From a virus: 29,550 bases of DNA. The position numbers and the translations under genes were made by a program. The stretch is from the IMG/VR virus record IMGVR_UViG_3300044704_000032, positions 1 through 29,550 of that record. One strand, written 5' to 3'. Shown piece by piece: positions 5,147 to 26,879 of the stretch (its first letter is position 1; each line of letters opens with the position of its first letter). The notes beneath the pieces are model-generated. The model saw only the letters and a program-made list of their open reading frames with translations. It was not told the DNA's origin and did no database searches.

Positions 5147-5689
5147 TCAGCAGCCGCGTGTGGCGAGCGCGCCGATCACGGCGCCGATCACAGCGGTGCT
5201 GGTCAGCGCGGCGATCAACTTGAGGCTCACTTCGCGGAGCCACCACGAGCGGTGCGCCGCGTTGCTCGTTCGTACGCGCCGCTCGTGCTCCTCGCTCTCG
5301 GTGCGCGCCTTGATCCTGTGGAGCGTGACGTCGGCGATCTTCTGCACGTTGTCGTGCACGACCTCGACGAGCTGGCGTTGGCCCTCGGTGCGCTCGTCGA
5401 GCTTGCCGATATCGACGCGGAGCTCGCCAACCTCGATCCGCACGCTCGACACCGCGCCTTCAAGGTTGTTCACCCGGTGCACGAGTTGACCCGTCGCCGC
5501 GGTGCTCGCGTCGAGCTCGGGCTTGAGCTCGACGGCGAGCTCCTTGGACGTGGCCCGCGCGATCGCCATGGTCTGCTCGGTCGGCCGCGGCGGACGCGAC
5601 GCCTCGAGGTCCGCCGCCGACGGCAGATCGTGGCGCGTGCGCGTCAGATCGTCGCGCGGCGGCTTGGGGGTGCGCTGGTCGTCGGGCAC
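5147..5689 (-). CDS. Coiled-coil protein with C-terminal membrane anchor
   Basis: GTG 5689 is one base after the +1 of the promoter at 5697-5728; a GTG at 5695 would lie before +1. This gives 180 aa. The N-terminal 45 residues are polar and Pro-rich. Residues 65-140 have heptad-like spacing (LVHRVNNLEGAV, VDIGKLDERTEGQRQLVEVV) and predict a coiled coil. Residues 156-177 are hydrophobic and form a C-terminal membrane segment. Topology would be a cytoplasmic or periplasmic rod anchored at its tail. It begins the lysis module after the tail genes, so it may be a holin accessory or inner-membrane spanin. The 30-base gap to the next start separates it from the lipoprotein gene. Confidence 0.6.
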   Translation of the reverse strand: MPDDQRTPKPPRDDLTRTRHDLPSAADLEASRPPRPTEQTMAIARATSKELAVELKPELDASTAATGQLVHRVNNLEGAVSSVRIEVGELRVDIGKLDERTEGQRQLVEVVHDNVQKIADVTLHRIKARTESEEHERRVRTSNAAHRSWWLREVSLKLIAALTSTAVIGAVIGALATRGC

Positions 5690-5696
5690 GGACACA

Positions 5697-5728
5697 ACGG
5701 TCGCTGTGACACGAGCGGTGGTCGATTT
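5697..5728 (-). promoter_or_regulatory. Late promoter element, copy 1
   Basis: On the minus strand AAATCGACCACCGC (5728-5715) is followed by ten bases and GCGACCGT, giving -35-like TCGACC, a 17-base spacer and -10-like GACCGT (5702-5697). Predicted +1 is 5690, one base before GTG 5689. It lies between the end of the tail protein gene (5737) and the lysis module. Confidence 0.72.
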
Positions 5729-5736
5729 GCCGGGCT

Positions 5737-7212
5737 CTACGGCGTCGGGAACGCGCCGAGCGTCGCGCCGAACACGTCCTCGATCAGCGCCACGGTAATC
5801 GTGCCGTCTGCGAGCTGCCCGTAGTCGACGTCGACGACGCGGAACACCTTGTTGACGATCCCGCACCACGGCCAGTTCGCCTTGAGCGCGTCGCCCGGCA
5901 ATATGGCGAAGAACTCGCGGTTGAGCTTGACGTTTGCCGTCGCGTACGGTCGTGCCACGACCGCCAGATCGCGCGCGACCAGCGTCTCGGCGAGCGCTTG
6001 GGTCGTGCATCCGGTGTACTCGACTTCGTGTGCGCGCAATCGCGGGATGAGTCCGCTCGAGTTGGCGAGTCGATGCGACATCGCCCAATTCTTCTGGTAA
6101 GAGCGCGAACGATCGTTAAACGTGACCCGGACCGCGTTGCTGGTCTCGCGCCAGCCGTGAACCGTGACTTCAGCGTCGACCGTGTTGTCGACGGTCATGA
6201 CAGGGATCAGGTTCGCGTCGTAGTCACGACGGATCAGTTTGAGCACGATGAGCCCTGTCGCCGGATCCTCGAACAGCACGCCGTCGATCTGCGCGAGGAT
6301 GCCGCCGATGATCCTCGCTGCGTCTTCGCTCTGGTAGATCGCGAGGCTGATCCCGTTCTGCTCGTTGAGCAGTGTCGTCGCAGCCGCCTGGAAGCTCGGC
6401 ACGTCGACGCGGGTCTGGTCGTAGCCGATCTTCCAGACCGGGGAGCAGATCAGATCGAAGATGACCCACGCCGGGTTCGCGTCGAGTCCGTTGATTGGTT
6501 CGGGGCCGACAGCGGCGATCTCGAGGCCGATTCCCGGGATGTGCGGGCTTGTGCCGATCGATCCGTAGCTTCCACTTGCCGCAATCACGCACAGCATCTT
6601 GTGGCGGTAGCCCGGCACGAGGGACCGATCGACGCCGGCCGCGGCGAGCCGCTCATCGATCGTGTTGCTGGGTCCGTTCGGATATGCCGTGATCACCTGA
6701 TCGCGTCGACCGTCCCAGAACTCGCCTTGCGCGAGCAGTGCGCCATCGTTGCCGAGGTTGTGGCCGATCAGCCGCGCTTCACCGTGGACCATGCCGGGAA
6801 ACGCGAACGGGATGTAAAGGTCGCCCCACCACACAGCCTTCCACCGCGGTGGTCGTAACGCACGCCAGTCGTAGAACGGCGCGAGCTGCGATCCGGGGTT
6901 CGCTGGATCGTTGTACTTGTCGTAGAACGGCACGCCGGGCGTGAGCAGCAGCGTGATCTGGTACTCGAACCCGTCGTTGCCTGCCGCGCTATCTGGGTTG
7001 CCGTGCCAGAGCAACACTGGGCTGTCGACGCGGATCGTCCCGTAGATGTACGGGGCAGGCGCGCCGATCGACGCCTGCGGAAACTCGAATCCCTCCGGCT
7101 GCGGCTTCTTGTACCCCGCAGGGCCGTCGGGTCCGCTGTGCTGGTACGCGTCATACAGAACGCCGATCCCACCAGTCAGAACGAATTCGCCGGCGATTTT
7201 TCCCCAGCCCAT
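5737..7212 (-). CDS. Tail tip / baseplate hub protein (Phage-tail_3-like)
   Basis: This 491-aa protein opens like the tip proteins of siphophages: a Gly-rich start, then ASIGAPAPYIYGTIRVDSPVLLWHGN, the conserved patch that passes the tape measure through the tip. The middle and C-terminal parts contain IGGILAQIDGVLFEDPATGLIVLKLIRRDYD and EVTVHGWRETSNAVRVTFNDRSRSYQKNWA, which resemble the putative phage tail protein domain (PF13550-like). It should be a structural component near the tail fibre attachment site. AGGAG lies six bases before the ATG at 7212. It follows the BR0599-like protein, the usual order at the end of GTA-like tail modules. Confidence 0.8.
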   Translation of the reverse strand: MGWGKIAGEFVLTGGIGVLYDAYQHSGPDGPAGYKKPQPEGFEFPQASIGAPAPYIYGTIRVDSPVLLWHGNPDSAAGNDGFEYQITLLLTPGVPFYDKYNDPANPGSQLAPFYDWRALRPPRWKAVWWGDLYIPFAFPGMVHGEARLIGHNLGNDGALLAQGEFWDGRRDQVITAYPNGPSNTIDERLAAAGVDRSLVPGYRHKMLCVIAASGSYGSIGTSPHIPGIGLEIAAVGPEPINGLDANPAWVIFDLICSPVWKIGYDQTRVDVPSFQAAATTLLNEQNGISLAIYQSEDAARIIGGILAQIDGVLFEDPATGLIVLKLIRRDYDANLIPVMTVDNTVDAEVTVHGWRETSNAVRVTFNDRSRSYQKNWAMSHRLANSSGLIPRLRAHEVEYTGCTTQALAETLVARDLAVVARPYATANVKLNREFFAILPGDALKANWPWCGIVNKVFRVVDVDYGQLADGTITVALIEDVFGATLGAFPTP

Positions 7213-10838: not shown

Positions 10839-11288
10839 CTAGTCCTCTCGGAAGCGGATGCTCCCCGTGATCGCGACCGTTGCCATCGCCGGCGTCTGGA
10901 TGCCGATGCCGTTGTTGGCCGTCGCCGGGACGATCAGCCCGTCCTGCGGATCGCAGCACCAGCGGAACGTCGAACGCTGGTTCAGCGCGACGCTCAACAG
11001 CACCGCGGCGGCGGTGTACGTCGGCTCGACGGTGTGGTTCTGGCCGGCCGTGGTGACCGCTGCCGGATCGGCGGTGTCGAGCGGCTGCGGCGTCACGGCC
11101 GTGCGCGTGCCCGTGGTCGTGCAGCGCTGGAGCTGGTAGAGGAACGCGTTGTCCGCAGCCGCACCGTCGGCGCCGAGCACGAGGTCGTACAGCCGGAACC
11201 GTCGCATGCCGGACGCCGGCGCAGTGATGTTGCCGAGCGATGCGGTCGCCGATGCGGTGCGACGCATCTCCACGGCGTAGTTGCCCAT
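10839..11288 (-). CDS. Virion structural protein, tail region
   Basis: This 149-aa protein (MGNYAVEMRRTASATASLGNI, then MRRFRLYDLVLGADGAAADNAFLYQLQRCTTTGT and FRWCCDPQDGLIVP) matches a small beta-rich virion protein type I have seen in siphophages of Proteobacteria, possibly a surface or decoration protein. The role is uncertain. The ATG at 11288 lies exactly at +1 of the promoter element at 11295-11326, so a separate leaderless transcript is predicted. It follows the tape measure gene by 36 bases. Confidence 0.65.
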   Translation of the reverse strand: MGNYAVEMRRTASATASLGNITAPASGMRRFRLYDLVLGADGAAADNAFLYQLQRCTTTGTRTAVTPQPLDTADPAAVTTAGQNHTVEPTYTAAAVLLSVALNQRSTFRWCCDPQDGLIVPATANNGIGIQTPAMATVAITGSIRFRED

Positions 11289-11294
11289 GGGCAG

Positions 11295-11326
11295 AGCGTC
11301 GAGCCGAGCTTCGCGGTGGTCGAGTT
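11295..11326 (-). promoter_or_regulatory. Late promoter element, copy 2
   Basis: AACTCGACCACCGC (11326-11313), ten bases, then TCGACGCT with -10-like GACGCT (11300-11295). Six bases later ATG 11288 is at +1. The first bases of the element overlap the TAA of the tape measure gene. Confidence 0.8.
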
Positions 11327-14441: not shown

Positions 14442-15249
14442 CGGCGACCTTTCTTGGCGTTGGCAGCCTTCGCGCGCTTCTTGAAGTCCTCAGCGTCCAC
14501 GTAGCAGACCGCGTCGATCAGGATCGATGCGGCGGAGTCGTCGAGCTCGTGGCGCTCGCACCAGCGGTCGATCGCGGTCCACGGAATGCGGCCGGCGATC
14601 AGGCCGAGCGGCCGGCACGTCTCGAGCGCCTTGTAGGCGATCACGACGAGCTGCACCGCGTCGTCGTGATCGGGACGGTCGGCCAGGATCGTCTCCTGTT
14701 CCGGGGTCGGCTCGCGTCCCTTCGCCTCGCCCATCTCGAGCGACGCGATCGTCGGGCCCGCCTTTTCTTCCCAGGCGAGCCACTGGGCTACTTTTTTCCC
14801 AGCTCGGTGCCCGCGTTCGGATCGGCGGCGAGCGTCGGGAAGTTGTCCGCGTCGCGCGCTGCGGCGGCGAGTCCGTCGAAGATGTCGTCGCGCTCGCTCG
14901 CGAGCGACAGCAGCAGCTCGAGGCACTTCTCGCGCGAGAACGGGCACGGCACGCCGGGCGAGTCGTCCTCGGCGACAAATTCCCAGCCCTTGACCACGGT
15001 CGCCGCGAATAGCTCGGCGGTGTGCTGCCGGCTCGCTTCGATCTTCGCCTCGGTGAGCCGTCCGCTGCCGAGCTTCTTACTCTGATCATTGGCGAGCTTG
15101 AGGAGCATCGACATGTACGGGCCGTTGCCCTTGCCAGCGTAGGCGAGCTCGAGCACCGGATTCTTGTCGAAGCCGAGCGTGATCGTGTCGAGCGTGAACT
15201 TGAGTGTGCCGGCCGGCTTCTGCTTGCTGAGCTGGCTTCCGAATCCCAT
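14438..15249 (-). CDS. Tail assembly chaperone fusion made by -1 frameshift
   Basis: The frame opened at ATG 15249 is joined to the downstream frame by a -1 shift on A AAA AAG (14797-14791). The downstream frame has no start codon of its own next to its homologous part, and reads KKVAQWLAWEEKAGPTIASL onward through LETCRPLGLIAGRIPW to the basic end ANAKKGRR. The fusion would be about 270 aa. In lambda the G and GT proteins made this way bind the tape measure and help assemble the tube. Here the pair lies between the tail tube and the tape measure gene, which is the standard location. The frame ends overlapping the tape measure ATG. Confidence 0.85.
14788..15249 (-). CDS. Tail assembly chaperone, unshifted product (gpG-like)
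   Basis: This 153-aa product stops at TAG right after the slippery sequence. It begins MGFGSQLSKQKPAGTLKFTLDTITLGFDKNPVLELAYAGK and is helical towards the C-terminus (CLELLLSLASERDDIFDGLA), as in other tail chaperones. It is expected to be made in excess over the frameshifted form. The ATG lies exactly at +1 of the promoter at 15256-15287. Confidence 0.85.
   Translation of the reverse strand: MGFGSQLSKQKPAGTLKFTLDTITLGFDKNPVLELAYAGKGNGPYMSMLLKLANDQSKKLGSGRLTEAKIEASRQHTAELFAATVVKGWEFVAEDDSPGVPCPFSREKCLELLLSLASERDDIFDGLAAAARDADNFPTLAADPNAGTELGKK
14791..14797 (-). other. Slippery heptamer A AAA AAG for -1 frameshifting
   Basis: In the 0 frame the codons are GGA AAA AAG TAG, so the heptamer A-AAA-AAG is in the correct phase and the stop codon follows at once. 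GGG-AAA-A overlaps it and is a second possible site (14800-14794). This is the strongest heptamer known for bacterial -1 shifting and is what tail chaperone genes usually use. Confidence 0.85.
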
Positions 15250-15255
15250 GCGCCA

Positions 15256-15287
15256 AGGGTCGGGCTGGCCCGAGCGGTGGTCGAGAT
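15256..15287 (-). promoter_or_regulatory. Late promoter element, copy 3
   Basis: ATCTCGACCACCGC (15287-15274), ten bases, then CCGACCCT with -10-like GACCCT (15261-15256). Six bases later ATG 15249 of the chaperone is at +1. Confidence 0.8.
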
Positions 15288-15302: not shown

Positions 15303-16796
15303 TCAGCTCGCCGGCAGGTACGGGAACACGGTCATGCCGAGCGAGAAGTTGTATGTCGTGTCGCGGAATGCCTCGATCGACGCCGGCAGCTTCACGGCCT
15401 CGTTCGCCGCGATGTCTGGGCCGCCGTCGCCGAGCGTCAGGGACGGCACATCGAACAGGACCGCGCCGTCCGTGCTCGCGATCGCGACGTCGAACGCGCA
15501 CGTGCGGTTGTCGCGGATCGCCTTGCACACGTCGTCCTGGGTGAAGATGCACGTGACGTCGAGGCTGACGTCGAAGCGACCCGTGATGATGCGCTTCGCG
15601 CCGAGCGTGCCCTGCTGGACCTGCGGCTTGACGTTGTTATTGACCGTCAGCTTCCAGTCGAGGATGTCCGTCGAGATGCCCGTCTCGTCGGTGTTCGATA
15701 CGCGCAGCCGACGAACCTGCGAGGCCGTCGTGAACAGCGCGGTCTGGACGGGCGTCGGCGCGGCTGCGGCGCCGGTCGCTCGCACCGTGCTTGGATCGGT
15801 GAAGTCCGTCGCTGCGAAGCTCACCGCGGCTGTGATCTTGTCCTCCGATGGCGCGTTGATCTCGAACGTATTGACCAGCGCGCCGAGCGCGTACGCGTAG
15901 CTCGTCGCACCCGCAGCCGCCGCGCCGGGATAGCCGATCTCGAGCGTGTAGCTCGGCTCCTTGTAGTCCGCCGAGTCTCCGAACACGTTGCGCACCCACG
16001 GGCCGAAGAACAGCTGGATCGTCTTGCCCGTCCCCGGATCGGTCGCCCATGCCTGATTCTTACGATCGACGGTGATCACGCCGGCCGCGACGCCGGTGAT
16101 CCGCGCGAAGCCGCGATTCTGCGCCGCGACGGTGAAGCCGAGCGCGCCGGGTGCCGCGGCCGTGCCGCCGCCGACCCAGACCCACCAGCCGGGCAGAAGG
16201 CCGAGCCCTGCGAATGCATTCGCGGCGCTCGTGAGGTTGCCCGCCGCGTTGACGCCGATGTCCCCGGACGCGCCCTGGTAGCCGACGACCTCGACGACCG
16301 CGGTCGCCGGCGGCGTCTCGATCGTACCGCCCGTGATCGCGATCGAGCCCGCCGTCGATCCCGCGCCGACGACCTTCAGGCCGTTGTTCAATGTGGTGCC
16401 GCGGATCCACAGGATCGCTCCCTGCGGCAACGCACCGCCGGCGGGCACGCCGATCGCGGTGGCCGTGAACGACGTGGGCACGAAACGGCCGACGCCGGTG
16501 CCGCCGGGATACTTCGTCGCGCTGCGGAAGATGCCCTCCCAGAACGCTTCGAGCAGCTCCTTGTTCAGGTCCTGCGTGACCTTCGGAGCGCTCTCGAGCC
16601 CGACGACAGCGCCCTTCTCGCGCTGGAGCATGATCGACAGCGGCTCGCTCGAGACCCGCTTGAGCTTCGCGTAGAAGTCGGACAGCCCGCCGCCGTTGGG
16701 TTGATGCCGCCGGTAGCCGGCGGTGGCCTGGACGCCGAGCGTCGTTTCGAGCGCGCTCTGCAGGCTGACGAAGTCCGACTTGACGAGCAGCGACAT
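15303..16796 (-). CDS. Major tail tube protein
   Basis: This 497-aa protein lies directly before the tail chaperones and after the terminator, where the tail tube gene is expected. It is beta-rich, with conserved-looking features in the C-terminal third: TDILDWKLTVNNNVKPQVQ, GAKRIITGRFDVSLDVTCIF and YNFSLGMTVFPYLP. The middle (about residues 120-260) is Gly/Ala-rich and may be an inserted Ig-like surface domain, which would explain a length above the 150-300 aa of many tube proteins. Its ATG is at +1 of its own promoter element, consistent with high expression. Confidence 0.8.
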   Translation of the reverse strand: MSLLVKSDFVSLQSALETTLGVQATAGYRRHQPNGGGLSDFYAKLKRVSSEPLSIMLQREKGAVVGLESAPKVTQDLNKELLEAFWEGIFRSATKYPGGTGVGRFVPTSFTATAIGVPAGGALPQGAILWIRGTTLNNGLKVVGAGSTAGSIAITGGTIETPPATAVVEVVGYQGASGDIGVNAAGNLTSAANAFAGLGLLPGWWVWVGGGTAAAPGALGFTVAAQNRGFARITGVAAGVITVDRKNQAWATDPGTGKTIQLFFGPWVRNVFGDSADYKEPSYTLEIGYPGAAAAGATSYAYALGALVNTFEINAPSEDKITAAVSFAATDFTDPSTVRATGAAAAPTPVQTALFTTASQVRRLRVSNTDETGISTDILDWKLTVNNNVKPQVQQGTLGAKRIITGRFDVSLDVTCIFTQDDVCKAIRDNRTCAFDVAIASTDGAVLFDVPSLTLGDGGPDIAANEAVKLPASIEAFRDTTYNFSLGMTVFPYLPAS

Positions 16797-16802
16797 GCCG
16801 GC

Positions 16803-16834
16803 ATCGTCAAATCCGTGGGTGCGGTGGTCGATTT
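16803..16834 (-). promoter_or_regulatory. Late promoter element, copy 4
   Basis: AAATCGACCACCGC (16834-16821), ten bases, then TTGACGAT with -10-like GACGAT (16808-16803). Six bases later ATG 16796 of the tail tube gene is at +1. It lies in the 63-base gap after the terminator gene. Confidence 0.8.
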
Positions 16835-17285: not shown

Positions 17286-17689
17286 AGCTCGATCTTCTTC
17301 GCCATCCAGCGCTGCTTGACGCGCTCGTCGGCGCGTTCGATTGCGTGCTCGACGAACTCTGCCTCGGCCTGCGGCGATGAGCCCTCGTTGAGCTGCTGGA
17401 TGTACGGCGCGTTGTTGGCCAGGCCGAGCTCGGCTTCGGGGTCGCGATTGGCGATCACTGCGGCGATCGCTGACTGCTGCGCCGATGCGGCTGCGCCGAC
17501 GTCGTCCGGGCTGCCGTTGGGCGCGGTGGGCGGCTCGCCGACGTACGGCACCCAGTTCGATCGCGCCCACGTCGTATCGACGGGCGTGGCCGCGACGATC
17601 TCGGCGGTGCGCTCGAGCACGATCTCCTTGCGAACATGATCGAGCTGCGCGGCGAGGTCGATCGCGATCCGCTGGCTCTGGCGCGTCAT
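17282..17689 (-). CDS. HK97 gp10-like neck / head-tail completion protein
   Basis: This 135-aa protein has the family signatures ATPVDTTWARSNWVP (about 34-48) and NNAPYIQQLNEGSSPQAEAEFVEHAI (92-117), the pattern of HK97 gp10 family proteins that help join tail to capsid. Its ATG is at +1 of the promoter at 17696-17727. The TGA overlaps the start of the terminator gene. Confidence 0.85.
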   Translation of the reverse strand: MTRQSQRIAIDLAAQLDHVRKEIVLERTAEIVAATPVDTTWARSNWVPYVGEPPTAPNGSPDDVGAAASAQQSAIAAVIANRDPEAELGLANNAPYIQQLNEGSSPQAEAEFVEHAIERADERVKQRWMAKKIEL

Positions 17690-17695
17690 GTCCAG

Positions 17696-17727
17696 AGGAT
17701 CGAGCTCGAGCGCGCGGTGGTCGAGAT
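17696..17727 (-). promoter_or_regulatory. Late promoter element, copy 5
   Basis: ATCTCGACCACCGC (17727-17714), ten bases, then TCGATCCT with -10-like GATCCT (17701-17696). Six bases later ATG 17689 is at +1. It overlaps the TGA of the gene before. Confidence 0.8.
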
Positions 17728-18037: not shown

Positions 18038-19096
18038 TTACGGGGTGACCATGCCCTGGAAGTACGTGCCGGCCTCGGGCGTGATGACGCCGAAGCCGTT
18101 GTAGACGTCGATGATGTTCGCCCAGCTGCCGCCCGGACCCGCCTTCTCATCGCGGACCTTGCGGATCTGGATGCCCTGGTCGCTCGCGACGCCGTTCCAG
18201 ACGAACCGCGCGAACGCCGCGGGCTCCTCGGACTGCAGCGTCAGGCCCGCGTCGCCGTTCTCGTCGCCGGCGGTCGGCGAGTAGAACAGCAGACCGTCGT
18301 CCGGCGGAACGATCGGCAGGTTGTTCGGCGTCTCGTTCTCGAGCGCGGCGTTGTAGATCGCCGTCGAGACACCGACCCACTTGATGCCGAGCAGCGCGGC
18401 GATCTGCGGCGCCTCGGCGGCGCGTGCGGCGGCGATCAGCGTGTTGTTGCCGTTGATGGTCGCGAACACCTGCGCCTTGATCTTCGCGGCGTTCCGGACC
18501 TTGTGCCAGAGCCGGCCGCCCATCGCGAAACCCATCTGCTCCGGCGCCATGCCGGTGAGGTTGCTCTGGATCCGGATCTCGTCCTGGATCGCCTCGATGA
18601 TGTCCGCGCCGGCGTTGTCGAAGTAGAGGCGGTTCTTCGCGGTCGCCGTGCCGGTGTTGTCGGCACCGGCGCCGGTGACGGTGCGATACCAGGCGGACGG
18701 CGTGAAGAACGTCGCCGCCATGCGTCGCTCGGTGTGCAGCGCCGCCTTGTAAGCGAGCACCCGGGGCACGAGCAGCTCGGGATTCCGCTCGACGTCCGCG
18801 GCGGCTGCAGCCGCGTCGTTGACGTCGTACTCGAGCGACCGAGCGTCCGTCTTGAACGGTGCGGTGCCGTAGCCCCACGCCGCCTTCTTCGGCGCTGCCG
18901 TCGGACCGCGCGGCTCGAGCTCGTCGCGGTTGAGGTCCCCCACGTTGACTGTCGTGTAGAGGCCGCTCGGCTTCTTGACGACCAGCTTCGGCACCATCTT
19001 CGTCGCGATGAATCGCCCATCGCTGACGAACCGACGAACCGCCATGTTGGTCTGGGGGACGTCGACGTACAGACTGCCAGGTGCAAAGTCGGCCAT
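18038..19096 (-). CDS. Major capsid protein
   Basis: This 352-aa protein begins ADFAPGSLYVDVPQTNMAV, has the GRFIATKMVPKLVVKKPSG region, long alpha-helical central parts (ELLVPRVLAYKAALHTERRM) and ENETPNNLPIVPPDDG, a layout fitting HK97-fold phage capsids. It follows protease, scaffold and decoration genes, the standard head order. AGGAG is nine bases before the ATG. There is no copy of the late promoter directly upstream, so it is probably read from the scaffold promoter. The type of capsid family is inferred from context and length. Confidence 0.82.
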   Translation of the reverse strand: MADFAPGSLYVDVPQTNMAVRRFVSDGRFIATKMVPKLVVKKPSGLYTTVNVGDLNRDELEPRGPTAAPKKAAWGYGTAPFKTDARSLEYDVNDAAAAAADVERNPELLVPRVLAYKAALHTERRMAATFFTPSAWYRTVTGAGADNTGTATAKNRLYFDNAGADIIEAIQDEIRIQSNLTGMAPEQMGFAMGGRLWHKVRNAAKIKAQVFATINGNNTLIAAARAAEAPQIAALLGIKWVGVSTAIYNAALENETPNNLPIVPPDDGLLFYSPTAGDENGDAGLTLQSEEPAAFARFVWNGVASDQGIQIRKVRDEKAGPGGSWANIIDVYNGFGVITPEAGTYFQGMVTP

Positions 19097-19165: not shown

Positions 19166-19552
19166 CTACGGCTTGGCGTAACGCGCGACGGGAAGGACCG
19201 TAATGATCGCGCCGGCCGCGCCGGCCGCTTCCATCGCCTTCGCGGCGACGATGTTCGTGGCGACCGCGGTGATCGCGTCACCGTTCGCGTTCGGCGTGAG
19301 CTCGGCGCCCTTCGCGACAGCCGCACCGACCTGGACCTTGCACGGGCGCAGATCGGTGTAAAAATCAACCGCATCGCCCGCGGTCGGCGCCTTCACGAAG
19401 TGGCCGCCGATAATGCCGTCGGCGCGCTCGCCGAGCACGGAGCACGCTGCGACGCCGGTGGCCGTGTACTTGCCGAAACGCCAGATCTTGGCGGTGAGGT
19501 CCCCGGACGCATCTGCGTTGACCGGTGGAACGGCGGTATCGATCTTGCCCAT
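19166..19552 (-). CDS. Head decoration protein, DUF2190-like
   Basis: This 128-aa protein is small, Gly/Ala-rich and beta-rich (GKYTATGVAACSVLGERADGI, VGAAVAKGAELTPNANGDAI), like the capsid-cementing proteins encoded just before the major capsid in many siphophages. GTAGGAG lies nine bases upstream of ATG 19552. It is separated from the scaffold gene by 75 bases with no promoter element. The family name is tentative; the decoration role is supported by position. Confidence 0.72.
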   Translation of the reverse strand: MGKIDTAVPPVNADASGDLTAKIWRFGKYTATGVAACSVLGERADGIIGGHFVKAPTAGDAVDFYTDLRPCKVQVGAAVAKGAELTPNANGDAITAVATNIVAAKAMEAAGAAGAIITVLPVARYAKP

Positions 19553-19627: not shown

Positions 19628-20323
19628 CTAGCCGGCCTGCCGGCCGTAGGCGCGCGTGGCGTCGTAGGCCTTCTTCAGCTCGATGCCCTTCTCGGTGGTG
19701 AGGAAGCGCTCGAGCGCGAGGCCCTCATCCTTGATGCCCTTCTCCTCGGCGAACTTCTTGGCGCCGTCGTTGAAGGCCTGGAGTGCGTCGGCTGGCTCGG
19801 CGTCACCGCCTGGATCGGCGCCGACCGGCTTGCCGAGCGACTTCATCGCGGCGTCCGCGCCCTTGAGCATGGCGGTCACGCTGTCGCGAACCTTCTCGTC
19901 GGCGATCGTGTCGAGCGCCTTGAGCGCCGCGACCTTGGTGTCCTCGTCCCCGGCGAGGTGTCCGATCTCGGTCTTCGCGCGCGCCTTGTACAGCGCGACG
20001 AGGCCGGTCGCCTTGCTCTTCTCGAGCTCGGCCGCGTTGGCGTCGTTGTCGCGCGCGAGCTGCTCCATGAGCGCCCCCTGGGACTTGCGGATCTCGACGC
20101 CCTTGACCGTCTTGTAGACGACCGGGTCCGCCTCGAGCTTGGACTTGACGATCGCTTCGCGGTCGGTGAACGACTTGCCGACGAACGGCTCGATCTCGTC
20201 CGCTGGCAGCGTGGCCGCATGAAGCCGCTGCGCTTCGGGCAGTGTGAGCGCGAGCGCGAGCAGCTTGGCGAGCTCGGTGTTGCGCTTCTCGAGTGCGGCG
20301 ATCTTGTCGGCGTCGGTGGTCAT
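19628..20323 (-). CDS. Nested scaffold protein (short form, internal start)
   Basis: ATG 20323 is in frame inside the longer gene and has GGAG six bases upstream, in an otherwise Pro/Ala-rich linker. It also has its own promoter element (20352-20383) with predicted +1 at 20345. The 231-aa product is the coiled-coil part alone, analogous to lambda Nu3 made from inside gene C. Two products of one frame sharing a C-terminus are a common scaffold design. Support is sequence-only: the coincidence of promoter, ribosome binding site and ATG. Confidence 0.7.
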   Translation of the reverse strand: MTTDADKIAALEKRNTELAKLLALALTLPEAQRLHAATLPADEIEPFVGKSFTDREAIVKSKLEADPVVYKTVKGVEIRKSQGALMEQLARDNDANAAELEKSKATGLVALYKARAKTEIGHLAGDEDTKVAALKALDTIADEKVRDSVTAMLKGADAAMKSLGKPVGADPGGDAEPADALQAFNDGAKKFAEEKGIKDEGLALERFLTTEKGIELKKAYDATRAYGRQAG

Positions 20324-20767
20324 CGTTCGCTCCGGTGGCTTTGTGGGGTTGACGCTAGGTGCCGCTGGGGCGGTGGTCGAGTTGGCTGCGGGCATCGGCG
20401 CTGGAAGGCGCTTCGTCGTCGGCGCCACGACCTCGTGCGTGTGGCCCGCGGCCTCGCCGATCGTGATAGCCGCGCCGTCTCGAACCCACGGGTGGGAATG
20501 CCACGCGTAGCTGCCGTCGTTGGCGGACTCGCTGCTCGTCATGCCGCTCTGCTGCTCGTCGACAGACGGCACGAGGTGTGAGTGGCCATTGGTGGCCGTG
20601 GTGAGCACGGCACGCTTCGCGAGATCCACGCCCCGCGTGATCTTGTCCGGCGCAGACGGTTCTCGCTTCATCAGCGCGACCGTCGCCGGCTTGTGACACG
20701 GGCGATCGACGCCGCTCAGCTCGTTGATGCGCAGATGAACGAGACGGGCCTTCGGCAGCTTGCTCAT
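19628..20767 (-). CDS. Scaffold protein with N-terminal leader region (long form)
   Basis: The start is ATG 20767, overlapping the TGA of the protease gene (ATGA), giving 379 aa. Residues 1-148 hold LRINELSGVDRPCHKPATVALMKRE, a motif often found beside XkdF-type proteases, then a His-rich stretch (GHSHLV, WHSHPW, GHTHEV) that could bind metal. From residue 149 it is helical and charged (ADKIAALEKRNTELAKLLAL), the pattern of a coiled-coil scaffold. This C-terminal part can also be made alone from the internal start at 20323. A copy of the late promoter lies within codons of PAANSTTAPA (residues 127-133). Confidence 0.72.
   Translation of the reverse strand: MSKLPKARLVHLRINELSGVDRPCHKPATVALMKREPSAPDKITRGVDLAKRAVLTTATNGHSHLVPSVDEQQSGMTSSESANDGSYAWHSHPWVRDGAAITIGEAAGHTHEVVAPTTKRLPAPMPAANSTTAPAAPSVNPTKPPERTMTTDADKIAALEKRNTELAKLLALALTLPEAQRLHAATLPADEIEPFVGKSFTDREAIVKSKLEADPVVYKTVKGVEIRKSQGALMEQLARDNDANAAELEKSKATGLVALYKARAKTEIGHLAGDEDTKVAALKALDTIADEKVRDSVTAMLKGADAAMKSLGKPVGADPGGDAEPADALQAFNDGAKKFAEEKGIKDEGLALERFLTTEKGIELKKAYDATRAYGRQAG
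20352..20383 (-). promoter_or_regulatory. Late promoter element, copy 6, inside a gene
   Basis: AACTCGACCACCGC (20383-20370), ten bases, then CCTAGCGT with a -10 of TAGCGT (20357-20352). It is the only copy with TANNNT and the only one inside a coding region. Predicted +1 is 20345, giving a 22-base leader with GGAG before ATG 20323. Confidence 0.78.
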
Positions 20768-21213
20768 GTCGTGGTCTCCTTCGAACGGACCCCGCCGCCG
20801 CCGATCGAGAAGCCGGTCAGCTCGCCGCGCTCGAACTTCGCGAGCATGTCCGGATCGGGCTTCATCGCCACAAGCCATCCGGTCATCTGGGCATCGATCG
20901 ACAACGCCTTCGCGATGTCCTCGGTCAGCGGAAACGAATGGACGACCGCACCGCGCTCGCTACCGTCGTGCATCTCCTTCGCGATACGCGCTGACTGCAT
21001 GAAGTCGGTGACCGCGACGATCATCTCGTCCTCGGAGATGTGATCGGCGTACATCTCGCCGTCGTCCTCGTCGACAGAGCCCTGGTCGTAGTAGGGCTCG
21101 AACTCGCCCGCGGCGTTCTTCGTCGCGCAGATGAGCGCGTAGCCGAAGACGAGGCCGAGCTTCTTGTCGACCTTGCAGACGCTGACCTCGACCTTACGGA
21201 TCGCTTTCGTCAC
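20764..21213 (-). CDS. Prohead protease, XkdF-like
   Basis: This 149-aa protein has the XkdF family pattern: LGLVFGYALIC (19-29), HISEDEMIVAVTDFMQSARIAKEMH ending at His82, VVHSFPLTEDIAKAL (90-103), GWLVAMKPDPDMLAKFERGELTGFSIGG with Ser136. His82 and Ser136 are the likely catalytic pair of a self-cleaving serine protease that removes scaffold from the procapsid. It starts at GTG 21213, exactly at +1 of its own promoter element. It is directly followed, with an ATGA overlap, by the scaffold gene. Confidence 0.85.
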   Translation of the reverse strand: MTKAIRKVEVSVCKVDKKLGLVFGYALICATKNAAGEFEPYYDQGSVDEDDGEMYADHISEDEMIVAVTDFMQSARIAKEMHDGSERGAVVHSFPLTEDIAKALSIDAQMTGWLVAMKPDPDMLAKFERGELTGFSIGGGGVRSKETTT

Positions 21214-21219
21214 GCCCCG

Positions 21220-21251
21220 ACGGTCGACCGGGCGATCGCGGTGGTCGAGTT
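21220..21251 (-). promoter_or_regulatory. Late promoter element, copy 7
   Basis: AACTCGACCACCGC (21251-21238), ten bases, then TCGACCGT with -10-like GACCGT (21225-21220). Six bases later GTG 21213 of the protease is at +1. It overlaps the TAA of the gene before. Confidence 0.8.
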
Positions 21252-21642: not shown

Positions 21643-22487
21643 GTGTGATGCCCTCCGGTGAGCGTGCCGCCGGCGAAACGCGTCGTAACCAGCGTGCCCT
21701 CGACATACGGCACGACCCGCTCGACCTGAATGAAGGTGATGGCGGGCGTGCCGATTGCGCCAGCGCTGACGCCTGCAGCATCCACGAACACGATGAGGCG
21801 TGTCGTGCCGTGCGTCTCTGCGCTCGCGATCCCGGTGAGCGCCAGCGCGTTCTCGAACGCCAGCGCGGCCGCGCCCACCACAGCATCGGTGGGCAGGCCG
21901 GTCGCATCGACATATGCGACGAACGATGCGCTGCCGATCGCTTCGGCGCTACCAACGCCGCTCGTGTCGACGTACGCGATCAGTGATGTCGCGCCGACCG
22001 TCGCGGCGCTCGCGACGCCGGCCGCATCGATCGCACTAGCGAGCGAAGCCGCCCCCACCGCTGCATCGCTGGCCACGCCGACGGTATCGATGTTTGCAGA
22101 AGTGCCGAACGAAGGTGCACCGATCGCCGCGCCGCTGGGGATGCCAGTCGCGTCGACGTATCCAACCAGCGCCGTGGTGCCGACTGCAGCGCCGCTCGCA
22201 ACACCGGCCGCGTCGACGTACGTGACGAGCGCCAGCGCGCCAATCGCTTGCCCGCTGGCAATCCCTGTCGTATCGACGTACGCAACCAGCGCCGCAGCAC
22301 CGACCGCAGCGCCCGTCGCGACGCCCGTCGGCACTAGCTCTGCGACGAGTGTCGCGGCGCCGATCGCCTCGGCGCTGGCGATTCCCGTCGCGTCCGCGTG
22401 CGCGATGGAGAGCGGGGTGATGCCAAGTGCGAGCGACTGACGCTCGGGCAAGAAGCGCAGCCATGGATTTCCGTCACGAAGGCCCAT
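21639..22487 (-). CDS. Repeat protein with eleven 20-aa repeats, fibre-like
   Basis: The start is ATG 22487, two bases after the TAG of the preceding gene, with GGAGG seven bases upstream. The 282-aa protein consists of an N-terminal 30 residues then 11 units of about 20 residues with the pattern G-[IV]-A-S-[AG]-x-A-[IV]-G-A...-Y-V-D (residues 33-255), then a short tail. Similar G-I-A-S-x-E-A-x-G repeats occur in phage tail or fibre proteins, where each unit adds a strand pair. The longer upstream extension of this frame is shadow sequence from the paralogue genes. Confidence 0.7.
   Translation of the reverse strand: MGLRDGNPWLRFLPERQSLALGITPLSIAHADATGIASAEAIGAATLVAELVPTGVATGAAVGAAALVAYVDTTGIASGQAIGALALVTYVDAAGVASGAAVGTTALVGYVDATGIPSGAAIGAPSFGTSANIDTVGVASDAAVGAASLASAIDAAGVASAATVGATSLIAYVDTSGVGSAEAIGSASFVAYVDATGLPTDAVVGAAALAFENALALTGIASAETHGTTRLIVFVDAAGVSAGAIGTPAITFIQVERVVPYVEGTLVTTRFAGGTLTGGHHT
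21723..22391 (-). repeat. Coding tandem repeat, about 60-base period
   Basis: Eleven units of roughly 60 bases encode the 20-aa repeat of the fibre-like protein. Units differ at many bases, so it is an old repeat under protein-level constraint rather than a recent expansion. Two units are one or two codons longer. Confidence 0.75.
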
Positions 22488-22489
22488 CG

Positions 22490-23332
22490 CTAGACCTCCA
22501 TGAAGTCGATCTCGGTCGCGAAGTTGATGATCGACTGCCCAGTACCATTGAACAGTAGCTGCAGACAGGCATCGGTCTGGATCTGCGGCATGTGCATGCC
22601 GAGCTCGCGAAACGGCAGGCCGCTCATGCCGTAGTCCTGCGCATTGAGAACCGGCAGACAGAGCAGCGGTCGCAGCAGCGTGACGCCGAAGTTGCCGGCG
22701 GTGCCTGTCGTTCCGGCGAGCGTCACGCTCTGGACCGAACGCACGCCGGTGTCGCCCTGCTGGAGCGACACGAAGAACATGCGACCGGCTGCATTGTTGT
22801 TGGTCGCCCCGAAGTCGATCGGCTGCGACGTGCGGCCGGCCGTGCCTGCCTGATTCGTGTAGCTGATCGTGAGCGTCGTGGCCGTAGCACCCACGGCCGT
22901 GTAGATCTCGACGCACGCAATCACTCGATCGCCGGTCGTGTAGCGCGTCAGAGCGGGCGTGCTCACGGTCTGCGCGGTCGTCACCGTGCCGCTCAGACCG
23001 CTGATGTGGGCGAGGCGATCCGCAAGCATCAACGTCCCGGCGAGGTTGTTGCTCATGTACCAGGAGCGAACCCAACCGAACAAACTGCCGCTCGCCGGGT
23101 TTCGCTGCCCGATCGCTCCGTTCGTCGTGCGGTCGCAGGTGGCTGCTGTAGTCGGAGGGAGAGCCGACGCTCCAGTGATTGCTCCGGAATTGTTGAAGGC
23201 TTTCGTGCCGAGGTCGAAGTAGCTCGCCCACCGCGTCCCCGCGGGATGCGTCAGAGAGTTGCCGCCACCCAAGATCTTCTCGTCGGGAACGGAGAGCTTG
23301 GAGACGTACGCCGCGAAGTCTGCGAGAGCCAT
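22490..23332 (-). CDS. Paralogue 3 of a virion-associated family, 280 aa
   Basis: The start is ATG 23332, two bases after the stop codon of the previous paralogue, with GGAG eight bases upstream. The core matches its two neighbours: MYLADRL-type segment (LMLADRLAHISGLSG), TTAQTVSTPALTRYTTGDRVIACVEIYTAVGATATTLTISYTNQAGTAGRTS, and LQQGDTGVRSVQSVTLAGTTGTAGNFGVTLLRPL. It diverges most of the three at both ends. This family is found in siphophages as a virion structural protein of unknown role, from memory. Confidence 0.7.
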   Translation of the reverse strand: MALADFAAYVSKLSVPDEKILGGGNSLTHPAGTRWASYFDLGTKAFNNSGAITGASALPPTTAATCDRTTNGAIGQRNPASGSLFGWVRSWYMSNNLAGTLMLADRLAHISGLSGTVTTAQTVSTPALTRYTTGDRVIACVEIYTAVGATATTLTISYTNQAGTAGRTSQPIDFGATNNNAAGRMFFVSLQQGDTGVRSVQSVTLAGTTGTAGNFGVTLLRPLLCLPVLNAQDYGMSGLPFRELGMHMPQIQTDACLQLLFNGTGQSIINFATEIDFMEV

Positions 23333-23334
23333 GA

Positions 23335-24174
23335 TCAGCGCTCCGCCATCGAGGCAAGGAAGCCAAGCGATATCGGCGTAACCGGGGAGGGCGGCAAGAG
23401 CGCAGCGCAGATGCACGCCCCGCTGACGTCCGGCATATTGCCGTCGAGGTACGTCTTCGTGGCGGACATCCCGGTGATATGGATGCCGATGACATCGATC
23501 GGTCTCGAGATCGTGATACCGAACGCGCCGGCGGTCCCTGTCGTAGCCGTGAGCGTCACGCTCTGGACGGACCGGACCCCGGCGTCGCCGGACTGCAGGG
23601 TCACTGGAATGATCCTGGCAGCCTCGCGCAAGCCTGTACCGCCGAATGACACGGTCGCGGTGCGCCCCGACGTTCCATTCTCGTTCGTATAGCTGATCGT
23701 CGCGGTCGTGTTCGTCGCACCGACTTGCGTGTAGATCTCGACGAAGATCTGGTTTCCAGCGCCACCGGTGTTGCGCGTGATCGAGCCGCCGACGGTCTGT
23801 GCCGTCGTGAGTGTCCCGTCGAGGTTCCCGCTGTGCAGCAGACGGTCGTAGACGACCACAACCCCACTGGTGGCGGTCGTGCAGTTCAGATACGCGCTCA
23901 GCGAATCGAGCCACTTCTGACGTCCGCCGCCCGGTGCCGTCTGCAGCCAACCACCGACGGTGGTGTTATCACAGGCCGCCGCGGCACCCGGCGTCGATCC
24001 GTGGCTTGGACTGCCCTCGAGCAGCCACGTCGAGTACCACCGGCCTGTGAGTGTAACGCCGGCGGCGGCTCCGCCGATCCGCCACTCCTTGTTGATCATG
24101 TAAAACTCTGGCGCCCCAGAATTCCCGCCGGTCTTGCGGTTGATGACCTCGTGCATGTCCGCGTAGGCGGTCAT
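23335..24174 (-). CDS. Paralogue 2 of the virion-associated family, 279 aa
   Basis: This protein begins MTAYADMHEVINRKTGGNSGAPEF. It shares RQKWLDS, the VYDRLLHSG stretch, TTAQTVGGSITRNTGGAGNQIFVEIYTQVGATNTT and LQSGDAGVRSVQSVTL with paralogue 1. Its ATG directly follows the TGA of paralogue 1. A 40-base segment is identical to paralogue 1 (see the repeat entries). The role is probably virion structural; which part of the virion is not known. Confidence 0.7.
   Translation of the reverse strand: MTAYADMHEVINRKTGGNSGAPEFYMINKEWRIGGAAAGVTLTGRWYSTWLLEGSPSHGSTPGAAAACDNTTVGGWLQTAPGGGRQKWLDSLSAYLNCTTATSGVVVVYDRLLHSGNLDGTLTTAQTVGGSITRNTGGAGNQIFVEIYTQVGATNTTATISYTNENGTSGRTATVSFGGTGLREAARIIPVTLQSGDAGVRSVQSVTLTATTGTAGAFGITISRPIDVIGIHITGMSATKTYLDGNMPDVSGACICAALLPPSPVTPISLGFLASMAER
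23906..23945 (-). repeat. 40-base segment identical to 24737-24776
   Basis: This segment codes for TAPGGGRQKWLDS in paralogue 2 and is identical in paralogue 1, while flanking DNA differs. It suggests recent duplication or gene conversion between the two genes. Confidence 0.8.
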
Positions 24175-25005
24175 TCAGCGCTCCGCCATCGCAGCGAACA
24201 GTGAGAGCGTCGTGGGAACGGTCGTCGCGTTCGAATGAAACATGAACGCGAGGCACGCGGTGGAGACGTCCGGAATCGGGCCATCAAGCGACGTCCTGGT
24301 GGTGCCGACGGCGCCTGACTGGAGGCCGAGCATCATCAATGGCCGCGCGATGATCACGCCGAAGTCACCGGCCGTGAGCGTCGAGCCCGCGAGCGTGATC
24401 GATTCGACGGATCGCACGCCCGAGTCGCCGGACTGCAGGGGCACCGGGATCGCGCGACCTTGCTCGCGCAGGTTGGTGCCGCCGATCGGGAATGCGGGCG
24501 ACGTACGACCGGCGGTCCCGGCTTGGTTCGTGTAGCTGACAGTCGCGGTCGTCGCGGTGGTGCCGATCGCCGTGTTGATCTCGACGAAGATCGCGTTGCC
24601 GACGCCGCCGGTGTATCGCGTGATCGCTCCGCCAACGGTCTGCGCGATCGTGAGCAGGCCCGACAGTCCACCGCAATGCAGCAGACGGTCGTAGATCATG
24701 ACCGACGAGTTGTTGCTGCAACAGGCGACGACGCTGTCGAGCCACTTCTGACGTCCGCCGCCCGGTGCCGTCTGCATGAAGCCGCCCGACGTCGTGTTGT
24801 CGCAAGCAGCTGCCGTCGTCGGCACGTTGCCGTGGCTCGGGGTGCCTTCCAAGAGCCAGCTCGAGTGCCACCTGCCGATTGCCGGCGCCGTCGCAACCGC
24901 TCCAGCGATCCGCCACTCCTTCGAGACCATGAAGTAGTCCGGCAAGCCGGAGTTACCCCCGGTCTTTCGGTTCACGTACTCGTTGAGGTCGGCGTAGGCG
25001 CCCAT
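24175..25005 (-). CDS. Paralogue 1 of the virion-associated family, 276 aa
   Basis: The start is ATG 25005, two bases after the TAG of the small coiled-coil gene. Its N-terminus GAYADLNEYVNRKTGGNSGLPDYF and WRIAGAVATAPAIGRWHSSWLLEGTPSHG closely parallel paralogue 2. It then shares the MIYDRLLHCGG and IAQTVGGAITRYTGGVGNAIFVEINTAIGTTATTATVSYTNQAG block and the LQSGDSGVRSVESITL block. Being first in the series it may be the parent copy. The longer frame upstream is shadow. Confidence 0.7.
   Translation of the reverse strand: MGAYADLNEYVNRKTGGNSGLPDYFMVSKEWRIAGAVATAPAIGRWHSSWLLEGTPSHGNVPTTAAACDNTTSGGFMQTAPGGGRQKWLDSVVACCSNNSSVMIYDRLLHCGGLSGLLTIAQTVGGAITRYTGGVGNAIFVEINTAIGTTATTATVSYTNQAGTAGRTSPAFPIGGTNLREQGRAIPVPLQSGDSGVRSVESITLAGSTLTAGDFGVIIARPLMMLGLQSGAVGTTRTSLDGPIPDVSTACLAFMFHSNATTVPTTLSLFAAMAER
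24737..24776 (-). repeat. 40-base segment identical to 23906-23945
   Basis: This is the partner copy in paralogue 1. The two starts are 831 bases apart, the length of one gene unit, so it is a local duplicate. Confidence 0.8.
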
Positions 25006-25591: not shown

Positions 25592-25999
25592 TCACAGCTT
25601 GAAGATTCGATTCGCTCCGCTGTCCCAGCGAACGGTCACGTCCGACCCGCTCGGCGTGAACGGCAGCCCGGTAGCGGTATCGATGAAGACGACGAGCGTA
25701 CTGGTGCCGGCAACACCGGTGTCGCGATAGATGACGAGCGACTCGATGCTCGCGCCGGTGACTGCGGTCAGCGTGATGTCGTCGGCGTCGGCAACGCCCG
25801 CCGTTTTCGTCTTGTTCGCGAGGTTGCCGGACGTCGCGACACGCGCGCCGGCCGTGATGTCGGAGAGGTTTTGATCCGTGGCCGGTACCGGCGTGTCGAC
25901 GCCATGATCGACGAACACGAGCTTGAAGTTGTGAGCGTCCCAGTCGAGATCGCCGCCGAGGAAGAATTCGCGTCCGATATCGAAGAGTGCGTTGGCCAT
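25592..25999 (-). CDS. Virion structural protein, 135 aa
   Basis: The start MANALFDIGREFFLGGDLDWDAHNFKLVFVDHG and the later YRDTGVAGTSTLVVFIDTATGLPFTPSGSDVTVRWD match a small structural protein type often found next to fibre or decoration genes in siphophages. AGGAGG lies six bases before ATG 25999, an ideal ribosome binding site. A six-codon ORF begins at the predicted +1 and ends on this ATG. No exact role is known. Confidence 0.68.
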   Translation of the reverse strand: MANALFDIGREFFLGGDLDWDAHNFKLVFVDHGVDTPVPATDQNLSDITAGARVATSGNLANKTKTAGVADADDITLTAVTGASIESLVIYRDTGVAGTSTLVVFIDTATGLPFTPSGSDVTVRWDSGANRIFKL

Positions 26000-26019
26000 C
26001 AGAAGCCTCCTGGCGACAT
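25999..26019 (-). CDS. Possible six-codon leader ORF (MSPGGF)
   Basis: ATG 26019 is exactly at the +1 of promoter copy 8. The ORF is six codons long, carries the ribosome binding site AGGAGG inside it, and stops with TGATG that merges with the ATG of the structural gene. Leaderless initiation followed by termination at the next start would couple translation. It may also be chance, because the +1 position favours ATG in this family. Confidence 0.4.
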   Translation of the reverse strand: MSPGGF

Positions 26020-26025
26020 GCGGCT

Positions 26026-26057
26026 AGCCTCGACGCGCGATGAGCGGTGGTCGAGTT
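26026..26057 (-). promoter_or_regulatory. Late promoter element, copy 8
   Basis: AACTCGACCACCGC (26057-26044), ten bases, then TCGAGGCT with -10-like GAGGCT (26031-26026). Predicted +1 is 26019, the A of the short leader ORF's ATG, 20 bases ahead of the structural gene at 25999. Confidence 0.78.
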
Positions 26058-26088: not shown

Positions 26089-26838
26089 TCAGCGATCCTC
26101 GATCGCGGCGGCGAATCGGCGACCGAGCTCGAGGTAACTTTGCGAAGTGAAGTGGGCACGGCTGGCGGGCTGCATCGCGAGGTCGTCAGCGGTAATCACC
26201 ACCACATCGGGCCGTTCGTGAGCCGTGCGCTCCTGGCCGGCGCGCACCATGTCGGGTCCGGTGCCGACGAAGCTCCCGTGCAGCCGGTTGAGGACGAAGC
26301 GAGCAGCAGGAAACCGCGCGCGCACCGCGTCTACGAAGGCGATCAGGTTGTCACCATAGGCCTGCGCCGTCGCTGCATCCGATGCGTCGCGTTCACCCTG
26401 GATCCAGACGACGGCAGAGACCGGCATGCCCTGCGAGACCTCGGCCGCAGCCGCACCGCTGACGAGCCGCGCGAACAACGGACCGTCGAGTCGCCAGTCG
26501 TACGCCAGCGAGGTCGCACCGATCGCCACCTTGTCGACCGCCGAGCCGGGCGGCAGCGCACGACCGAGCGTGAGCTCGACGCCAAACGTGCCGTCGGTGC
26601 GCGGCGACAGATCGCGCCACGCACCGCCGAGCTCTTGGTAGCGCGCCTCCGGGTAGGGCTGCGCGAAGTCGACGTCGGCGCCGGAAAGATCGGCGACCTG
26701 GCCGATACCTTCGGCGTTTGACTGGCCGGCGATCATGACCAGGCGAGACCGAGGTAGCGCATCCGCGCTCGGTGCGTCGTGTGACGCGGCTTGTGAGCTG
26801 CACGCGACCAGCGCAACGGCGATCAGCAACGAACGCAT
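26089..26838 (-). CDS. Lipoprotein acetylesterase, SASA/CE6-like SGNH hydrolase
   Basis: This 249-aa protein begins with a short lipoprotein signal (RSLLIAVALVAC, Cys13) and an Asp/Ala linker. Family marks are MIAGQSNAEG with the GQSN motif and nucleophile Ser40 (35-44), the later GVELTLGRAL block, WIQGERDA (145-152) and a C-terminal D-to-His pair at about Asp219 and His229. The family removes O-acetyl groups from sialic acids, xylan or similar glycans. A secreted, membrane-anchored form inside a head operon is odd; it may alter host surface glycans (a moron gene) or act on the cell wall. It has its own promoter copy 9. The substrate cannot be read from the sequence. Confidence 0.78.
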   Translation of the reverse strand: MRSLLIAVALVACSSQAASHDAPSADALPRSRLVMIAGQSNAEGIGQVADLSGADVDFAQPYPEARYQELGGAWRDLSPRTDGTFGVELTLGRALPPGSAVDKVAIGATSLAYDWRLDGPLFARLVSGAAAAEVSQGMPVSAVVWIQGERDASDAATAQAYGDNLIAFVDAVRARFPAARFVLNRLHGSFVGTGPDMVRAGQERTAHERPDVVVITADDLAMQPASRAHFTSQSYLELGRRFAAAIEDR

Positions 26839-26847
26839 GACGTGCGC

Positions 26848-26879
26848 AGCGTCGAACCGCCGATAGCGGTGGTCGATTT
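26848..26879 (-). promoter_or_regulatory. Late promoter element, copy 9
   Basis: AAATCGACCACCGC (26879-26866), ten bases, then TCGACGCT with -10-like GACGCT (26853-26848). Predicted +1 is 26841, three bases before ATG 26838 of the esterase. The element overlaps the TAA of the head morphogenesis gene. Confidence 0.78.

Follow-up and report, generated by a model that had tools for sequence, protein, structure and literature searches.

The phage represented by this DNA very probably uses a separate transcript to make an additional, short scaffold protein together with the downstream capsid proteins. As judged from sequence comparisons, this transcript would arise from a promoter-like element (copy 6 of a family with nine copies) that is embedded in the scaffold gene, just ahead of an in-frame ATG at which a nested product is predicted to begin.

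The window (the whole stretch of DNA that was analysed, 29,550 nucleotides) holds the late module of a tailed phage, with genes on the minus strand. Its head genes are ordered protease, scaffold, decoration, capsid (starts at 21213, 20767, 19552 and 19096), and the features that bear on the nested start are:

20764-21213, minus strand: prohead protease, XkdF-like (PF14550), with a leaderless GTG at the predicted +1 and an ATGA overlap with the scaffold reading frame
19628-20767, minus strand: long open reading frame of 379 amino acids, phrog_24785 (function not assigned), comprising a GVDRP segment, an HxH domain, a disordered linker and the helical putative scaffold
20352-20383, minus strand: copy 6, the internal promoter-like element, with AACTCGACCACCGC at -38 to -25 and TAGCGT at -12 to -7
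20345, minus strand: predicted +1 of copy 6, placed according to the RTG position at the other copies
20323-20345, minus strand: leader of 22 nt with GGAG, ending at the nested ATG (20323-20321)
19628-20323, minus strand: predicted nested short product, the helical scaffold of 231 amino acids (residues 149-379 of the long frame)
19166-19552, minus strand: decoration-like protein, phrog_673, led by TAGGAG, downstream of copy 6
18038-19096, minus strand: major capsid protein, phrog_1005, led by TTAGGAG

The decoration role of gene 19552 is a putative one. Two family labels look misleading in this region: 'head scaffolding' for phrog_673, which matches the decoration-like gene (19552-19166, minus strand), and 'DNA methyltransferase' for phrog_1530, which matches the protease gene (21213-20764, minus strand). 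Elsewhere in the window, homologous blocks, read as duplicated structural domains, recur every ~830-840 nt at 22667-25005 across genes 25536, 24174 and 23495, and 60-nt repeats occupy 21873-22390.

The ATG at 20323 is in frame with the reading frame 20767-19628, corresponds to its residue 149, and is preceded by CCGGAGCGAACG. In an AlphaFold model built from an alignment of 18 relatives, residues 112-149 of the long protein are disordered, model confidence jumps at about residue 150, and confident helices begin at residue 152; the nested start consequently falls on a predicted domain boundary. Copy 6 itself lies within the linker. The earlier note had described the region behind this ATG as a coiled-coil scaffold; the helices are borne out by the model, while the scaffold role is suggested by genomic position and the predicted helices, and a fold search of the PDB with the scaffold returned no significant match. 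It had likewise assigned a His-rich linker and a protease-associated segment to the region ahead of the ATG. The histidines are indeed there, as an HxH domain with three His pairs upstream of the linker, but the protease is encoded by a separate frame, 21213-20764. The three HxH pairs (20584-20435, minus strand; residues 62-111) are the sole invariant residues across 21 relatives, and the region is possibly a metal-binding domain situated between protease and scaffold.

The element to which copy 6 belongs is sharply defined. The extended pattern AWHTCGACCACCGC-N13-A(-11)-N3-T(-7) has nine matches in the 29.5-kb window versus none in 100 shuffles, and all nine lie on the minus strand, which is the coding strand of the window. 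When the copies are aligned on their core, each has TCGACC at -35 to -30 and a -10-like box at -12 to -7, about 17 bp apart, and every copy carries A at -11 and T at -7 (9/9); within the promoter class, the -10-like box mostly reads GANNNT. During DNA opening, sigma70-family factors capture these two positions of the -10 box, A-11 and T-7. The class thus agrees with sigma70-family promoters in its spacing and in A-11/T-7, but not in the TTGACA/TATAAT consensus; a sigma70 scan misses it, with neither of these two hexamers matched. Apart from copy 6, the family consists of eight intergenic members:

26848-26879, minus strand: same-class promoter, +1 at 26841, ATG at 26838
26026-26057, minus strand: same-class promoter, +1 at 26019, 20-nt leader, ATG at 25999
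21220-21251, minus strand: same-class promoter of the protease gene, +1 at 21213
17696-17727, minus strand: same-class promoter, leaderless ATG at 17689
16803-16834, minus strand: same-class promoter, leaderless ATG at 16796
15256-15287, minus strand: same-class promoter, leaderless ATG at 15249
11295-11326, minus strand: same-class promoter, leaderless ATG at 11288
5697-5728, minus strand: same-class promoter, +1 at 5690, GTG at 5689

With +1 placed 35 nt downstream of T(-35), the predicted start site coincides with an ATG or GTG in six of the nine copies, five of which are gene starts, and two further copies have their start codon 1 or 3 nt past it. The five gene starts at +1 lack a Shine-Dalgarno sequence (-0.9 to -3.3 kcal/mol), and none is present at the starts of the other copies in general (-0.2 to -3.3 kcal/mol), with the exception of the 26019 copy. 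There, the ATG at +1 opens a frame of only six codons, and AGGAGG leads the ATG at 25999 behind a 20-nt leader. Given RTG codons at the predicted +1, mostly without a Shine-Dalgarno sequence, we infer that the AWHTCGACCACCGC family represents promoters whose mRNAs are mostly leaderless. For the 26054 promoter, the predicted RNA (26019-25999, minus strand) begins ATGTCGCCAGGAGGCTTCTGATG, a six-codon leaderless upstream frame that contains AGGAGG, ends in TGATG and is coupled to gene 25999. Among the virion genes lies one for a SASA-type carbohydrate esterase (PF03629; 26838-26089, minus strand), which has a promoter of the AWHTCGACCACCGC class to itself.

Copy 6 reads AACTCGACCACCGCCCCAGCGGCACCTAGCGT (minus strand, 20383-20352), with T(-35) at 20380. 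That it is the only family member inside a coding region, as had been claimed beforehand, is correct: its closest competitor for such a position, the 17727 copy, merely begins in the TGA of gene 18026-17727, a gene with homologues in L054 and L102. The predicted +1 at 20345, 22 bases ahead of an in-frame, GGAG-led ATG, was likewise confirmed in coordinates, frame and leader sequence. Copy 6 is the least consensus-like member of the family, scoring 16.2 versus 34-43 for the others under a matrix derived from the remaining eight, a value within reach of the best shuffled scores. This is the one point that favors a chance match in a low-complexity linker and also speaks against a working promoter. 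Copy 6 nevertheless retains both invariants outside the core, A-11 and T-7, the 14-nt core alone is expected by chance only 0.002 times per strand, and the element recurs at the same boundary in four diverged phages. Contradicted by this conservation and by the shuffles, a fortuitous match was rejected, and we accord it next to no probability.

The comparison with related phages for a conserved element, which the earlier note had suggested, was run and was positive in L005, L054, L102 and L098. Together with the window, these make five promoter-class phages, and in all of them an internal copy lies at the same domain boundary. Their linkers align without gaps from AA at -38/-37 through TCGACC and A-11 to T-7, with A-11 and T-7 kept in 5/5 internal copies, at a chance expectation for such motifs of 0.01-0.07 per locus. 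The internal copies of L005 (scaffold 44% identical) and L054 (35%) have a perfect core, A-11 and T-7, and the nested ATG of L054 is at +2. The promoters of L102 (major capsid protein 48%) read AATCGACCC(C), as does its internal copy, TCGACCCC, which is followed by a 19-nt leader with GGAG and then ATG. In L098 (about 24%), the phage's promoters read A(A/T)TCGACCGC, and the internal copy, TCGACCGC, follows this consensus with the nested ATG exactly at +1. The proposed separate promoter is thus supported by internal copies that follow the consensus of their own phage in every case. The protease is fused into the scaffold frame in all four relatives, as PF14550 in L005, L054 and L102 and as DUF2213, a different protease family, in L098 (7452-8825, plus strand), where the position of the internal promoter is unchanged. 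L102 has another core at 7203, within its decoration-like gene; with neither A-11 nor T-7 present, it was discounted as a promoter. Beyond these genomes, in L003 (IMGVR 3300045968_000052), a related tail module and a leaderless promoter copy occur with an apparently different capsid protein, so the class apparently travels across head modules. Relaxed pattern scans of viral contigs gave mostly single, unrelated matches, and a search of a genome collection yielded one distant relative (L099) and no host.

These alignments also bear on whether the repeated letters merely encode a conserved peptide (K/N-S-T-T-A), for instance a protease cleavage site in the linker. Four of the five internal copies share a codon phase, and three of these four encode STTA; but L102 has STPQ, and the L098 element, in a different phase, encodes QIDRDR, with IDRDR where the others have STTA. 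This frame change indicates that DNA rather than peptide is conserved. Moreover, synonymous choices favor the core (probability of the core given the protein 0.04, 0.13, 0.09 and 0.016 in four genes), and eight copies lie outside genes altogether. The peptide reading, contradicted by the frame change in L098, was rejected as well; its probability is negligible.

About 18 relatives without the promoter class, the RDJL phages included, also have an in-frame ATG at the same boundary. Across 21 loci, with the promoter clade included and relatedness not corrected for, the Shine-Dalgarno sequence of the nested ATG has a median of -8.7 kcal/mol versus -2.7 kcal/mol at other ATGs of the same genes (p=2e-11). 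It is strong in most relatives without the promoter and weak in a few (L089, L094), and it is weaker in the window, L005, L054 and L102 (-4.0 to -6.6 kcal/mol), with -8.9 kcal/mol in L098. Most simply, the nested scaffold would be an ancestral feature, or at any rate a widespread one, which the promoter clade provides by means of a transcript of its own. A long and a short product with a common C-terminus, as foreseen by the earlier note, are hence supported by an in-frame ATG at the boundary in about 20 related phages, with a strong Shine-Dalgarno sequence. Loss of the element with retention of the protein, which that note had set against its prediction, was found only where the whole promoter class is absent, and most such relatives have a strong internal Shine-Dalgarno sequence.

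One might instead suppose that the short form is made solely by internal translation of the long mRNA, copy 6 being a regulator site or an RNA element. GGAG does precede ATG 20323, and most relatives appear to rely on a Shine-Dalgarno sequence alone; yet the fixed spacing from core to RTG, the invariance of A-11/T-7 and the missing Shine-Dalgarno sequences at other copies fit promoters, and we consider this explanation very unlikely. Unlikely, too, if not to that degree, is that copy 6 is a real promoter whose purpose is the decoration-like and capsid genes, placed within the gene for lack of space, with the short scaffold as a by-product. In its favor, the stretch from 20345 to the major capsid gene contains no other convincing copy in the window, nor does the corresponding stretch in L054 and L102. 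Against this purpose, the internal ATG persists in relatives that lack the promoter, in most cases behind a strong Shine-Dalgarno sequence, and in 5/5 phages the promoter stands just ahead of the nested ATG, with no leader or almost none in L054 and L098. Copy 6 would nevertheless also be the nearest promoter of its class for the decoration-like and major capsid genes and therefore probably sets the output of the capsid module. The proposal that the promoter governs the ratio of long to short form is accordingly supported at the level of sequence with one refinement: capsid-module output is probably set as well, not this ratio alone.

In our preferred reading, which we regard as quite likely, copy 6 is a working internal promoter of the late class, and an mRNA from about 20345 gives the free scaffold, decoration-like and capsid proteins. 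Its architecture (a -35-like TCGACC, a 17-bp spacer and a -10-like box with the invariant A-11 and T-7) would direct transcription from about 20345, and ribosomes would begin at ATG 20323 to form the free helical scaffold of 231 amino acids; the same mRNA would run on through the decoration-like and major capsid genes. A longer mRNA from 21213 would provide the protease and, via the ATGA overlap and a Shine-Dalgarno sequence of its own, the long HxH-scaffold protein, of which there would presumably be less. The Shine-Dalgarno sequence at 20323 could be used on this long mRNA, too. The effect would be a small number of protease and long-form chains alongside abundant free scaffold and capsid subunits, with copy 6 doing the job of the strong internal ribosome site in the relatives. 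Promoter activity, product amounts and scaffold function are what we infer here. More tentatively, and with somewhat less than even confidence, we suggest that these phages form a group with its own late-transcription specificity (a sigma factor, an activator or a remodelled polymerase recognizing TCGACC-N17-GANNNT) and leaderless late mRNAs, in which an internal promoter has replaced the ribosome site and recognition and the internal copy coevolve. The sigma factor families PF04542 and PF08281 (sigma70 regions 2 and 4) had no match in the searched contigs, all of them either incomplete or possibly so.

The usual explanation for nested scaffold genes is internal translation. In the present case, ribosome binding seemingly governs the nested protein in one set of relatives and a conserved internal promoter does so in another, which makes it possible to compare how phages adjust their protease:scaffold:capsid ratios and suggests that a promoter can persist inside a coding sequence across very diverged phages. 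In the papers searched, we found no description of this promoter class and nothing that bore directly on leaderless late promoters in phages or on promoters inside scaffold genes.

The middle promoters of phage T4 are host promoters modified by the phage, with a MotA box and the host -10. The class described here likewise has a -10 box preceded by a long conserved stretch around -30, but it differs in sequence, and of the -10 box only A-11 and T-7 remain. In mycobacteria, leaderless mRNAs that begin with RTG have been mapped (PMC4633059). The window shares with these the ATG or GTG at the predicted +1, the lack of a Shine-Dalgarno sequence and some starts a few nucleotides downstream; in contrast, its start sites are predicted from sequence, and its conserved -35 region is unusually long. 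Also close is gp72 (phrog_24785) of the Roseobacter phages RDJL (Xiamenvirus), a homologous HxH-scaffold protein with an in-frame ATG at the boundary, whose family differs by a strong internal AAGGAG(G) and has no copy of the promoter class there. The deposited RDJL annotation contains the long frame only, as hypothetical, and thereby misses the nested start. A further precedent is the C/Nu3 pair of phage lambda, a protease gene with a nested, in-frame scaffold; lambda transcribes its late genes from one distant promoter and makes Nu3 by internal translation. Interactions between C and Nu3 are described in PMC3224144. As in lambda, a protease and scaffold region lies upstream of the decoration and major capsid genes, and an in-frame internal start is predicted to give a scaffold that has its C-terminus in common with the longer product. 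Unlike in lambda, the protease is a separate frame in the window, though fused in L005, L054, L102 and L098, and a promoter of the phage's own class would stand just before the nested start.
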